Origin: an uncultured Eudoraea sp. | Lineage (GTDB): Bacteria; Bacteroidota; Bacteroidia; Flavobacteriales; Flavobacteriaceae | Assembly (NCBI RefSeq): GCF_947260015.1 | Contig: NZ_CAMYOM010000026.1 | Location: forward strand, 1-45,215 | Direction: 5' to 3' | DNA length: 45,215 nt | In this document: positions 1,884 through 6,166 of the stretch, piece by piece | Layout: every line of letters begins with the position of its first letter | How positions within the stretch are numbered: position 1 is the first letter of the stretch | Made by a program: the position numbers and the translations under genes | Notes under the pieces: generated by a model | The model's input: only the letters and a program-made list of their open reading frames with translations | Told to the model about the DNA's origin: nothing | Database searches by the model: none

Positions 1884-4435
1884 AAAAGCGACAGAAAGCC
1901 TCATCTATTGCAGGCACAGGCTGGCTTTTTAAAATGGCCTGGCGTGATGGAAAGGCGAGTGGGGCCAGACTAATCTTGTTTATGGCCTCTATCATCCTGG
2001 GCATTACAGCGCTGGTTTCAATCCAATCTTTTAGTGATAATCTTAAAGAAAATATTAGTCTTCAGTCGAAATCGCTTATGGGAGCTGATTTTATTATAGA
2101 TTCAAGACAACTTCCAAATGAAAGAGTGCGGGGAATCATGGATTCATTAGGCGGTTCGAAAGGTATGGAAGTAAATTTTGCATCCATGGCCGCATTTCCA
2201 AAAAATGAGAGCAGTAAACTGGTTCGTGTGCGGGGGCTGGAAGGTGCATTTCCACTCTATGGGAAATTAGAGACTGAGCCTGCAGATGCGGCAACAACAT
2301 ATATTTCTGAAGAAGGAGCTCTTGTAGACGCCACCGTAATGTTGCAGTTTGGATTAAAAGCTGGAGATATAATTAAAATAGGCAATGTTAGTTTACCAAT
2401 TACGGGGACACTTATATCTGCACCCGGTAATAGCGCATTTGGCAGTTCTGTAGCACCACCGGTTATTATTCCATTTAGCATTATTGAACGAACCGGGTTA
2501 TTGCAGGTTGGGAGCCGACTGGACTATAACTACTATTTTGTTGCACCTCTTGAGATGGACCTCGATGCTCTTGACAAAGAACTCGACCCTATTTTGGATG
2601 CTGAGAATGCAGATCTTGATACACATACCTCCGGGAGCAGACAACTCGGTAGGTCTTACGGAAATGTTGGAAAATTCCTCAACCTGGTTGCATTTATTGC
2701 TCTTTTATTGGGCTGTGTAGGTATCGCAAGCTCTGTACAAATCTATATAAAAGAAAAGTTGAGGTCGGTAGCCGTGCTTAAATGTATGGGTGCCAGCCGA
2801 AAACAGACCTTCCTTATTTATTTGATTCAAATAGCGGGCATGGGCCTTCTGGGGGGTGTTATAGGAACTTTAGGGGGCATATTGCTGCAGTTGACATTTC
2901 CAAGCCTTTTACAGGAGTTTTTGCCTTTTGAGGTGCAATTGTCTTTATCACCTCAACCAATTATAATGGGGCTATTGCTGGGCGTGTTTATGTCTGTACT
3001 ATTTGCGCTACTGCCACTTATGAGTACCTGGTATGTTTCTCCATTACAGGTTCTTCGTATACAGGAAACACCGGAGGAACGTCCCAGAAAAGCCAGGGCC
3101 CTTGTGTTTATGGGAATAATAATCTTTATTTTCCTGTTTTCCCTTTGGCTTTTAGAAGACTTGCGTTATGCCCTGGGTTTTGTGATCAGTATTGCGGTAA
3201 CTTTCTCCATATTGGCCGGTGTTGCCACGCTTTTTATGAAAGGAATTAAGAAATACTTCCCCTCCTCATGGGGATTTACCTCAAGACAGAGCCTGCTGAA
3301 CCTTTTTCGGCCTAATAATCAGACTATGGTATTATTGGTAGCAATTGGAGTTGGTGCTTTTTTAATTAGTACCCTCTATTTTACAAAAGATATGCTGTTA
3401 GCTATGGCACAGCTTGATAGCAATAGTAACACTCCCAACATAATTCTCTTGGACGTGCAGAGCGAGCAAAAGGAAGATGTTGAAAATAGCATAACCCCTA
3501 AAGGTTTTCAGGTATTAGATAATATTCCAATAGTTACTATGCGTATGCATACGATAAAAGGACGCGCTGCGAATGATCTTAGACAGGACACAACCCTGAC
3601 AATGAATAAATGGGTTTTAAATCACGAATTTCGGGTTACTTACCGTGATACCATGATTTCTTCGGAAACCCTTACTGAAGGTGAGTGGGTACCTGAAATT
3701 CCAAAAGAAGGTCTTATCCCTATTTCCATAGCTGATAATATTGCAAGAGATGCTGAGGTTGCAATAGGTGATACTATTGTTTTTAATGTACAAGGCGTTC
3801 TGATGGAAACAGTTGTGGGTAGTATTCGCGCTGTAGAATGGGCAAGAATGCAACCTAATTTTAACCTTGTCTTTCCCAAGGGCGTTTTAGAAAATGCCCC
3901 ACAGTTTCATGTAATAACAACCAATGCACCCACCGCCGAGGCTTCAGCCAACCTCCAGCGAGAACTGGTTCAAAAATTCCCCAATATCTCGGTGCTCGAT
4001 TTACGGCAAATCGTAACGCTCATAGAGAACGTCCTTGATAAGATTGCTTGGGTAATTAACTTTATGGCCTTTTTTAGCATCCTTACCGGTATTATTGTAT
4101 TAATTGGAGCCGTGCGCACCAGTAAATATCAGCGCATTAAGGAAAGCGTTCTTTTACGAACCCTGGGTGCAAAAAGTAAACAAATTCTGCAAATCACAGC
4201 CCTTGAATACTTTTACCTGGGAGTATTGGGAAGTGGTATAGGCATATTACTTTCACTGATAAGCAGTCAGTTACTGGCCACATTTGTTTTTAAAGCGCCA
4301 TTTGTGCCTTCGCTAGTGCCCTTTTTAGTATTGCTGCCCGGGATAACATTACTTGTTCTCTTAATCGGCCTTAGTAACAGCAGGAGTGTGTTAAACAGCC
4401 CTCCATTGGTTGTTTTGCGTAAAGAGGGAAGGTAA
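1880..4435 (+). CDS. FtsX-family ABC permease, YbbP-like
   Basis: This is an 851-residue inner-membrane permease with two FtsX-type modules. A first helix near residues 30-50 is followed by a periplasmic MacB-like domain, then membrane segments around 265-390. Further helices near 410-465 precede a second extracytoplasmic domain at about 510-740, and a last trio of helices occupies about 750-850. The ERLRSVAVLKCMGAS-type stretch after the first core helix (here EKLRSVAVLKCMGAS) and its repeat ESVLLRTLGA near 750 are typical FtsX signatures. The start is GTG at 1880, inside the stop of the ATPase gene. The pair resembles YbbAP; the substrate is unknown. Confidence 0.92.
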   Translation: MKKRQKASSIAGTGWLFKMAWRDGKASGARLILFMASIILGITALVSIQSFSDNLKENISLQSKSLMGADFIIDSRQLPNERVRGIMDSLGGSKGMEVNFASMAAFPKNESSKLVRVRGLEGAFPLYGKLETEPADAATTYISEEGALVDATVMLQFGLKAGDIIKIGNVSLPITGTLISAPGNSAFGSSVAPPVIIPFSIIERTGLLQVGSRLDYNYYFVAPLEMDLDALDKELDPILDAENADLDTHTSGSRQLGRSYGNVGKFLNLVAFIALLLGCVGIASSVQIYIKEKLRSVAVLKCMGASRKQTFLIYLIQIAGMGLLGGVIGTLGGILLQLTFPSLLQEFLPFEVQLSLSPQPIIMGLLLGVFMSVLFALLPLMSTWYVSPLQVLRIQETPEERPRKARALVFMGIIIFIFLFSLWLLEDLRYALGFVISIAVTFSILAGVATLFMKGIKKYFPSSWGFTSRQSLLNLFRPNNQTMVLLVAIGVGAFLISTLYFTKDMLLAMAQLDSNSNTPNIILLDVQSEQKEDVENSITPKGFQVLDNIPIVTMRMHTIKGRAANDLRQDTTLTMNKWVLNHEFRVTYRDTMISSETLTEGEWVPEIPKEGLIPISIADNIARDAEVAIGDTIVFNVQGVLMETVVGSIRAVEWARMQPNFNLVFPKGVLENAPQFHVITTNAPTAEASANLQRELVQKFPNISVLDLRQIVTLIENVLDKIAWVINFMAFFSILTGIIVLIGAVRTSKYQRIKESVLLRTLGAKSKQILQITALEYFYLGVLGSGIGILLSLISSQLLATFVFKAPFVPSLVPFLVLLPGITLLVLLIGLSNSRSVLNSPPLVVLRKEGR

Positions 4436-4460
4436 TAATTGAATTATAATATTAAGGATA

Positions 4461-5120
4461 GATTTCTCAATCGTTGCTTCGCAACTCATGTCGAAATGAC
4501 TGTTTGGTTTTAAATAAGCCGGTGCAACGTATAGCTGTCATTTCGAACCGCACGAAGTGCGCGTGAGAAATCTCAATTTATGTATTTCCCATACACTTGC
4601 GTGCAGTCTGGATTTCTCAATCGTTGCTTCACAACTCATGTCGAAATGACCGTTAGGTTTTAAATAAGCCGGTGCAGCGTATAACTGTCATTTCGAACCG
4701 AACGCAGTGAGCGTGAGAAATCTCAAAATAACTGTTTTCAATTACACTTGCGTGCAGTCTGGATTTCTCAATCGTTGCTTCGCAACTCAAGTCGAAATGA
4801 CTGTTTGGTCTTAAATAAGCCGGTGAAACGTATAACTGTCATTTCGAACCGAACGCAGTGGGTGTGAGAAATCTCAAAATAACTGTTTTCAATTACACTT
4901 GCGTGCAGTCTTGATTTCTCAATCGTTGCTTCGCATCTCATGTCGAAATGACTGTTAGGTTTTAATAAGCTGGTGCAATGTATGGCTGTCATTTCGAACC
5001 GCACGAAGTGCGCGTGAGAAATCTCAATTTATGTATTTCCCCATACACTTGCGAGCAGTCTGGATTTCTCAATCGTTGCTTCGCATCATTTCGAACCGAA
5101 CGAAGTGGGTGTGAGAAATC
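4461..5120. repeat. Inverted-repeat array, left block (units 1-5)
   Basis: Five copies of one unit start at 4461, 4611, 4762, 4913 and 5063, a period of 150-151 bp. A full unit of about 112 bp has a left arm (GATTTCTCA, a small hairpin with loop TTC, CGAAATGAC), a linker of about 36 bp, and a right arm (GTCATTTCG, a small hairpin with loop GAA, TGAGAAATC). The outer and inner 9-mers of the two arms are exact reverse complements. Units are joined by a 38-39 bp spacer of two kinds: units 1 and 4 carry one, units 2 and 3 the other. Unit 5 (5063-5120) has lost its linker and the inner half of its left arm. Short frames across the array are repeat translations, not genes. Confidence 0.93.
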
Positions 5121-5123
5121 TAA

Positions 5124-5423
5124 TCAAATGATCTCTTGATTTAGAAATTCCCATTCCGGATTGAATGCATTTATTAGTACTTCTTTCTTTTTTCTACGCC
5201 ATTTTTTGATTTCTTTTTCTCTTAGTATGGCACTATTTGGGTCTTGGAAACCTTCGTAATATATTAGATAAAAGCAATTATATTTTCCTGCAAAAGACTT
5301 TTTTGAATTATGGCTATCAAAATAATGTTGTGATAATCGTCTTTGTATATTATTGGTTATTCCGATGTATATCGTGGTTCTGTTTTCATTAGTGGTTATA
5401 TATACAAAGTAACGGTACAGCAT
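5124..5423 (-). CDS. GIY-YIG endonuclease domain protein embedded in the repeat array
   Basis: This 99-residue single-domain protein of the GIY-YIG superfamily (the UvrC N-terminal/homing-endonuclease fold) matches the small stand-alone proteins common in Bacteroidota. From the ATG at 5423, F6-V7-Y8 takes the GIY place, followed by Y19-I20-G21, R28/R29 and H33, then E69 in the REKEIKKW helix and N89 in NPEW. All catalytic positions seem present, so the enzyme should be able to nick or cut DNA. An upstream TTG at 5441 is rejected because it is part of repeat unit 6. The stop codon is three bases from unit 5 and the start codon eight bases from unit 6, so any promoter must lie in the repeats. 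Its target is unknown. Confidence 0.88.
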   Translation of the reverse strand: MLYRYFVYITTNENRTTIYIGITNNIQRRLSQHYFDSHNSKKSFAGKYNCFYLIYYEGFQDPNSAILREKEIKKWRRKKKEVLINAFNPEWEFLNQEII

Positions 5424-5431
5424 TTCTTTTA

Positions 5432-5942
5432 GATTTCTCAATCGTTGCTTCGCAACTCATGTCGAAATGACTGTTTAGTTTTAAATAAGCCGGTGCAACG
5501 CATAGCTGTCATTTCGAACCGAACGAAGTGGGTGTGAGAAATCTCAAAATAACTGTTTTCAATTACACTTGCGTGCAGTCTGGATTTCTCCATCGTTGCT
5601 TCGCAACTCATGTCGAAATGACCGTTGGTTTTAAAATAAGCTGTTGCAACGTATAGCTGTCATTTCGAACCGAACGCAGTGTGCGTGAGAAATCTCAAAA
5701 TAACCGTTTTCAATTACACTTGCGTGCAGTCTGGATTTCTCAATCGTTGCTTCGCAGCTCATGTCGAAATGACCCGGTTGGCTATATAATTTTATGTAAA
5801 ATATAGCTGTCATTTCGAACCGCACGAAGTGGGTGTGAGAAATCTCAATTTATGTATTTCCCCATACACTTGCGAGCAGTCTGGATTTCTCAATCGTTGC
5901 TTCGCAACTCATGTCGAAATGACTGGTTGGTTTTAAATAAGC
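5432..5942. repeat. Inverted-repeat array, right block (units 6-9)
   Basis: Four further copies of the unit start at 5432, 5583, 5734 and 5884, again 150-151 bp apart. Units 6, 7 and 8 are full length; unit 9 keeps the left arm and the first part of the linker and then the similarity stops near 5942. Spacers after units 6 and 7 are the kind containing AACTGTTTTCAATTACAC (one base different in unit 7); the spacer after unit 8 is the other kind, with ATGTATTTCCCCATACAC. Unit 8 has a divergent linker while both arms are kept, which points to selection on, or recent spread of, the arms. Confidence 0.92.
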
Positions 5943-6166
5943 CTATGTTGTCCAAATCTGTCAATCATTCTTTTATAATCCATCTAGAAACCCGGCTTAA
6001 TTACCCAAAATACCGATGAAGGGTTTTTCACTTCAATTCGTTTCATCCGAAATTTTTATCGCTTTATCGCAAATTTTTCCAGCTACCGAAAAATAAGGGC
6101 TTTCAGCGATTAATACCTTAAGGATATCACTTTCTGTAGTTATTTTATTATACCCAATCTAATAAC
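5943..6166. other. Intergenic stretch between the repeat array and a small secreted ORF
   Basis: These 224 bases follow the truncated ninth repeat unit. I see no long open frame, no tRNA and no convincing hairpin terminator. The stretch just before the next ATG is A+T rich and probably carries the promoter and leader of the small gene at 6167, but no clear TAnnTTTG box can be placed. Confidence 0.5.

Follow-up and report, generated by a model that had tools for sequence, protein, structure and literature searches.

According to passages of Di Nocera et al. 2013 (PMC3733652), most REPs can be sorted into two large superfamilies, the GTAG and the CGTC types, and REPtrons have been deleted in many E. 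coli strains. The CGTC REPs, which include the Neisseria dRS3 and the Rickettsia RPE-4 and RPE-6 repeats, carry the tag CGTC, TGTC or CCTC and nearly always begin their stem with a complementary AT; their published form has a stem of 8-9 bp, a loop of 4-5 and a CCA tail. S. meliloti, A. lipoferum and the Neisseriae are given as CGTC-positive. The same passages state that CGTC REPs "apparently lack a dedicated transposase" and regard the other transposase genes near them as a fortuitous association only.

Here we describe a locus at which arms resembling CGTC REPs enclose a gene for a small GIY-YIG nuclease. From sequence comparison, we propose with a probability of roughly 0.7 that the combination of REP, GIY-YIG gene and inverted REP is, or descends from, an autonomous mobile element of ~0.4 kb, an analogue of the REPtron with a GIY-YIG nuclease in the place of RAYT, and that gene-less arm pairs, including the other units of the array described below, would be its non-autonomous relatives.

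The array and its nuclease gene

The window, by which we mean the whole stretch of 45,215 nucleotides that was analysed, contains a tandem inverted-repeat array that, as read from the sequence, extends from 4461 to 5923. Its unit of ~112 bases consists of two inverted arms with their GTC tags pointing inward, and recurs with a period of 150-151 bases. Unit 1 (4461-4572) is REP-like, with a minus-strand arm at 4461-4500 and a plus-strand arm at 4537-4572 whose GTC tags stand face to face. A minus-strand arm is likewise followed by a plus-strand arm in unit 2 (4611-4722; arms 4611-4650 and 4687-4722), unit 3 (4762-4873; 4762-4801 and 4838-4873), unit 4 (4913-5023; 4913-4952 and 4988-5023), unit 6 (5432-5543; 5432-5471 and 5508-5543), unit 7 (5583-5694; 5583-5622 and 5659-5694) and unit 8 (5734-5844; 5734-5773 and 5809-5844), and a lone minus-strand arm, half unit 9 (5884-5923), ends the array. 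Unit 5 (5063-5120) is collapsed: a truncated left arm (5063-5085) is fused to the right arm (5086-5120), ~54 bases are gone, and the tag of the right arm reads ATC in place of GTC. The array would have grown in tandem through slippage or unequal recombination.

The gene for the GIY-YIG nuclease (99 aa) lies on the minus strand at 5124-5423, with its ATG at 5423 and its stop codon at 5124-5126, and occupies the place of the usual ~40-base linker between the tails of units 5 and 6. A preliminary description had the gene wedged between two arms, and indeed it ends 3 bases from the unit 5 arm (which ends at 5120) and has its ATG 8 bases from the unit 6 arm (which starts at 5432). GATTTCTC and GAGAAATC, which it had named as inverted ends around the gene, are also seen in the sequence. 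One correction to it is that unit 5 is incomplete. It had also proposed that expression of the gene comes from the repeats. From the gene's own view, the 5' arm, with its tail facing the ATG, reads tag-to-tail toward the start codon and the 3' arm is inverted, which leaves both tags pointing outward. In the window the gene lies in intergenic DNA, and so do the genes at the annotated loci that were read.

From the tag onward, the window arms read GTCATTTCGA...GAGAAATC. The pattern GATTTCTCN{8,26}TCGAAATGA has 16 exact matches in the window's own 3.42-Mb genome, all of them within the array, and its backward control has 0; a left-arm 23-mer allowed up to 3 mismatches has 9 matches in that genome, where 0.00 are expected. 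Arms in this genome are restricted to the array, and gene-less copies were found nowhere else in it. The window arms share with the CGTC REPs the GTC tag, the complementary AT at the stem base (GTCAT...ATC is present in the 15 intact arms) and the arrangement in inverted pairs, and they are clustered, as CGTC REPs are in Neisseria. The intact right arms have the tag TGTC in 7/7 cases. Unlike the published form, the arms have a 5-bp outer stem that encloses 22-26 nt and no CCA tail, and all 8 intact left arms carry AGTC or GGTC and not CGTC, TGTC or CCTC. Because of these departures in stem length, loop, tail and left-arm tag, we call the window arms relatives of the CGTC REP superfamily, which they resemble, rather than strict members of it. 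With this resemblance, the scope is wider than was first thought.

Folded as DNA, the stretch 4461-4573 adopts a four-way form made of an outer stem and three hairpins (z -3.5), and the four intact single arms that were folded are weak (z +0.1 to -1.7). A Rfam search over 4300-6100 of the window returned nothing at the gathering threshold, the array DNA had no match in the plasmid collection, and PADLOC returned two weak PDC-S14 matches of 17 bits and nothing else.

The protein matches PF01541 with 65.0 bits (E 7.9e-18; the query had one extra codon upstream). Two alignments, one with 12 and one with 40 sequences, have among their invariant columns two Tyr, Arg, His, Glu and Asn, which we take to be the I-TevI active-site positions Y6/Y17/R27/H31/E75/N90, and the catalytic residues are intact, as had been suggested. 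The AlphaFold2 model has a pLDDT of 94, and a fold search with it ranks UPF0213 1zg2 (E 5.5e-4) before Slx1 (from 0.014), UvrC (0.14) and I-TevI 1ln0 (1.3); one of the Slx1 entries is titled for branched DNA substrates. The protein is a single domain, and a second DNA-binding domain is absent.

Arms beside related nuclease genes

Two samples of relatives were used for counting. The family sample covers 100 genomes, 67 with a match, with the window protein as the sole query, and its count takes 100 of the first 101 listed matches besides the window, one broken fragment being omitted; the 7 of these 100 genes with broken frames were kept in the near-gene arm count and dropped from the tree, triplet and orientation analyses. 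For the GTDB sample, at least 583 stretches were confirmed and the top 80 taken; the search used 12 query proteins of which 11 came from plasmid-collection loci, most of them already seen to carry REPs. The generic arm motif reads GTC, then AT and three bases, and further on their reverse complement, AT and C (GTC-ATxyz...z'y'x'AT-C), and the AT at the stem base is therefore built into the motif used for relatives.

Among the matches listed, the two closest family relatives (67% identity) are surrounded by arms of the same type, and five further family relatives that were examined have repeats of other sequence, which mostly obey the same rule of GTC, AT and triplet followed by reverse complement, AT and C. 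Arms come to within 200 bp of the gene in 47 of the 100 first-listed family cases, versus 67 of 797 for ORFs more than 1 kb off, and in 61 of the 80 top-ranked among at least 583 GTDB loci, versus 29 of 327 for other ORFs; 44 of these 80 loci have arms on both sides. The expectation that such nuclease genes would lie near such repeats in other genomes was thus borne out. The titles of the GTDB records span Alpha-, Beta- and Gammaproteobacteria, Bacteroidota, Armatimonadota, Omnitrophota, Ignavibacteriales, candidate phyla and one archaeal MAG. Among 50,697 phage records, the GIY protein of locus L151 had no match at E 1e-5.

A chance association, or an artefact of intergenic space, would have in its favour only that the gene is located in intergenic DNA. 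Four scrambled motifs were found at 0, 1, 0 and 2 of the 100 family genes and five at 0, 0, 2, 0 and 0 of the best 80 of at least 583 GTDB loci. The enrichment also holds per noncoding kb, with 4.11 arms near the genes vs 0.40 far from them in the family sample (10.4-fold) and 5.23 vs 0.28 in the GTDB sample (18.6-fold). The 360 flank segments hold 319 GTCAT tags. The reverse-complement triplet and ATC come after 183 of them, and the control triplets (complement, reverse and same) after 0, 2 and 4. We consider this explanation to have a negligible probability: chance was rejected on the scrambled motifs, the control ORFs and the control triplets, and intergenic bias on the near and far rates.

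Arms with the canonical CGTC form are also found at such genes. In Rhizobium CIAT894, S. meliloti Ak57 and Shinella WSC3-e, a canonical CGTC REP lies 22 nt before the GIY gene and an inverted REP lies 33, 11 and 17 nt after it, respectively, the one in Ak57 with one extra base; in Neorhizobium, the distances of the canonical REPs from the gene are 55 nt on the 5' side and 27 nt on the 3' side. In Azospirillum lipoferum the gene is preceded by two REPs, one strict and the other imperfect and inverted, and followed by a strict pair, and the N. gonorrhoeae gene sits amid dRS3-type repeats, one of them 3 nt past the stop codon. The canonical rhizobial relatives carry CCGTCATCCTCGGGCTTGACCCGAGGATCCA; the S. 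meliloti REP has a 9-bp stem and a 5-nt loop, and the canonical stem, loop and tail were recognised by eye in L151, L153 and L154. For the plasmid collection, 7 of 11 matches were fetched in one search and 9 of the 42 listed in another, and a strict arm lies within 200 bp in 11 of the 15 full-length loci read. By eye, L155, L161 and L163 have variant tagged palindromes, L158 has no recognisable one, and stem bases of the AC/GT and GC variants occur in Sphingobium and Novosphingobium. Planktothrix plasmid p1 has a GIY gene with REPs on both sides, whose neighbours are a type IIL restriction-modification gene and the DISARM gene drmA.

The arms have a preferred orientation. On the 5' side and on the 3' side alike, 84 of 153 genes have an arm within 150 nt. 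The nearest 5' arm reads toward the ATG in 59 of the 84 genes (9/19 for control ORFs), and the nearest 3' arm is inverted in 61 of 84 (4/21). The commonest distance of the 5' arm is 20-30 nt, which in GTDB loci was measured from the match start, sometimes a few codons inside the gene, and the 3' arm mostly lies within 20 nt. Arms so near to ATG and stop codon could be regulatory, acting as terminators or mRNA hairpins that were recruited to the gene with no link to mobility, and passages of PMC3733652 do place REPs mostly downstream of coding regions. However, the 3' orientation is opposite to that at control ORFs, and a regulatory role does not account for a duplicated unit bounded by REPs or for the joint presence or absence of gene and REPs at the sites described below. 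We regard it as very unlikely.

Arms lie beside 43 of 73 intact genes of the window's clade. Another clade of small GIY-YIG genes, which we label UPF0213-like, is nearly free of repeat association, with arms at 1 of 20 (Fisher p 8.7e-6, both clades being drawn from one bacterial family). This contrast bears on passive hitchhiking, in which recombining or duplicating REPs would trap small intergenic genes by accident. Tandem growth in the array and in Sinorhizobium Ak57 does look recombinational, but the second clade is barely affected, and neither are small ORFs in general (20/153 with an arm in the family sample, 8/97 in the GTDB sample). We judge hitchhiking to be slightly less probable still than a regulatory role.

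We also compared arm type, scored as the triplet of one arm per gene, with the nuclease tree, which is built on a short alignment and has many weak forks; the tree includes 10 of the 15 full-length plasmid-collection loci (L155, L158, L161, L162 and L163 were omitted), and 116 of its 184 rows are labelled. The triplet changes 47 times vs a shuffled mean of 75.0, and 16 times vs 27.6 on the family-only tree, and in both cases 0/300 shuffles are as low. In a weaker test, shuffles confined to genomes (7 genomes with several types, 21 genes) were as low by parsimony in 28/1000 cases; in 27/45 cases the triplet is shared with the nearest relative from a different genome, a score that within-genome shuffles reach in 8/1000, again the weaker kind of test. 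By these sequences arm type tracks the nuclease tree, less strongly inside genomes. A host-wide repeat background was rejected on the within-genome shuffles, the weaker tests. One stretch of ~6 kb in genome G087 (contig C1, 1187344-1193543; L141) holds four small GIY-YIG genes, with arms at one only.

Duplicated, occupied and empty sites

Rhizobiales bacterium AFS094519 carries two copies of the unit, 375 bp long by blastn and 85.3% identical, within unrelated flanks. The duplicate runs from the CCGTC of the 5' REP to the GAC of the 3' REP, that is, between the outer REP tips; a second aligner gave the same right end and a left edge 18 bases beyond the REP tip, at 84%. By eye, the copy on contig C48 has an apparent frameshift near its start. 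A relative of this genome, G113, whose flanks are 90% identical, has neither gene nor REP at the site.

Occupied and empty sites also occur in the window genus, Azospirillum, Sphingobium and Sinorhizobium. In A. lipoferum, the gene with REPs on both sides stands between sufB and sufC, and A. ramasamyi, A. oryzae and Azospirillum strain B510 have neither REP nor gene there; in eight more Azospirillum rows the alignment is split into two pieces and lacks the middle. Among the Sphingobium matches listed, 7 records have the gene and 4 have the flanks with no gene match at that place. Of two such empty sites that were read, the one in strain TomTYG72 has no such REP and the one in TomTYG74 has, by eye, one tagged palindrome; Sphingobium REPs are of the AC/GT variant and are missed by the generic motif. 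S. meliloti Ak57 (L152) has a full copy at 1443-1820 beside an internally deleted copy at 1160-1318 between REPs, and Sinorhizobium K101 has imperfect REP pieces only at this site. The shortened copy beside the full one resembles a MITE derived from its parent.

At the window site, the neighbouring gene was matched in 6 other congeners. There is no arm in G101 and a single one in G103 and in G104, in the latter followed by the contig end; G100 has arms and then an assembly gap, and G108 one intact and one degenerate pair with no gene; G107 has one pair, a gene 92% identical to that of the window, and two further pairs. No target-site duplication could be read at the empty sites, where the intergenic DNA is too diverged. 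By eye, palindromes at gene-less sites in L165 (~657-697) and L272 resemble two inverted REPs reduced to their outer halves and are possibly scars of excision or deletion. An arm-less clade (L076, L112, L124 and L136) is syntenic, with homology extending 762-1367 bp past the gene, so that not all members are mobile; the proteins of this subclade end in ...NPDWKDLSEYI or similar, and it is perhaps a domesticated member.

The preliminary description had also expected arms to depend on the nuclease, and here the outcome is mixed. Across 100 family genomes, counts of GTCATTYYGA-type arms and of GIY matches are positively correlated (rho 0.52, vs 0.27 for the backward control motif, with totals of 690 arms and 90 control matches). 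Genome by genome, dependence is not strict: arms occur in 8/10 congeners, some of them incomplete assemblies, and the cognate gene in 2; seven other congeners have nothing closer than a GIY relative at 28-40% identity. In G094 the arm pattern has 55 matches and a small GIY-YIG gene is absent, and three family genomes with at least 8 arm matches have no GIY match. Conversely, a strict arm within 200 bp is missing from 30 of 73 clade genes and from 19 of the best 80 of at least 583 GTDB loci, and a relaxed search for tagged hairpins left 17 of these 19 loci without one. Repeats may outlive their own enzyme, as PMC3733652 describes for the REPtrons deleted in many E. coli strains, or another route may spread REPs.

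These observations bear on the chief rival, a selfish free-standing nuclease of the homing type that cuts a REP-containing site and is copied into it by repair, the REPs themselves being spread otherwise. REPs outnumber the gene and also occur without it, most congeners hold arms without the cognate gene, certain genes lie within REP clusters (L156), and I-TevI is among the weak fold matches. However, no generic-motif REP is present at the empty sites of three Azospirillum, of G113 and of G101 in the window genus. These sites suggest that gene and REPs arrive or leave together, and the homing reading fits them less well. The short distance of the REPs with their tags outward, and the tracking of nuclease clade by arm type, also argue against it, and we consider it unlikely.

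The proposed element and known systems

At the level of sequence, the comparison establishes the association of gene and arms, their outward orientation and short spacing, the matching of types, a duplicate bounded by REP tips, and occupied and empty sites. In the mobile element that we favour, a REP, the gene for a one-domain GIY-YIG nuclease and an inverted REP would follow one another, each REP having its GTC tag at the outer end. The nuclease would recognise its own REP type, extruded as a hairpin or a four-way structure, and cut there; since its fold is close to that of Slx1, a branched-DNA nuclease, the extruded REP is the most likely target for this putative activity. The break or nick would then lead to the copying of the unit to a new site through transposition or repair. 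The suggestion in the preliminary description of a REP/RAYT-like pair with a GIY-YIG enzyme thus gains support from the enrichment, the outward tags, the tree-tracking arms, the duplicate and the empty sites. We see the odds as evenly balanced for a broader proposal, in which these units would form a bacteria-wide class of transposable elements with a single-domain GIY-YIG transposase and CGTC-type REP hairpin ends, the source of the CGTC REP superfamily (dRS3 and its kin) and a second, independent counterpart of RAYT-REP, whose enzyme would cut its own type of REP when this is extruded as a four-way structure or hairpin.

GIY-YIG proteins and CGTC REPs were both known already, and their pairing is new as far as we could find. 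The range searched, the open-access full-text literature, yielded among the papers listed none that links GIY-YIG to REPs; the term 'GIY' is absent from the text of PMC3733652 and has 0 occurrences in passages of PMC12306157, PMC5082802 and PMC6006769. The pairing offers a candidate enzyme for the CGTC REPs, whose spread passages of PMC3733652 leave open, and it predicts which nuclease belongs to which repeat, in units of ~0.4 kb that are small enough for bench tests. If the proposal is true, small genes annotated merely as 'GIY-YIG nuclease family protein' would gain a role, and two unrelated nuclease folds would be linked to REP-type repeats.

Several known systems share single features with this locus. 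The small UPF0213 GIY-YIG proteins (1zg2, 1ywl) are alike in size and fold. Free-standing GIY-YIG homing endonucleases and Slx1 have the same catalytic fold and motif, but here the ends are hairpin repeats and the loci intergenic; unlike a homing endonuclease, the 99-aa protein has no separate DNA-binding region and its gene is not inserted in a conserved target gene. As in an insertion sequence or MITE, the unit present in two copies in AFS094519 is bounded by terminal inverted repeats. In layout the locus is like the REPtron, which combines GTAG REPs with RAYT/TnpA-REP. The two differ in their enzyme, an HUH/Y1 tyrosine transposase of the IS200/IS605 group there and a PF01541 GIY-YIG nuclease here, and in their tag, GTAG there and GTC here. 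In both, short palindromes surround a nuclease gene and the repeat type fits the enzyme type. Repeat copies elsewhere in the genome without the gene, a further trait of the REPtron, are seen in the congener G107 and in Rhizobiales genomes and not in the window genome.
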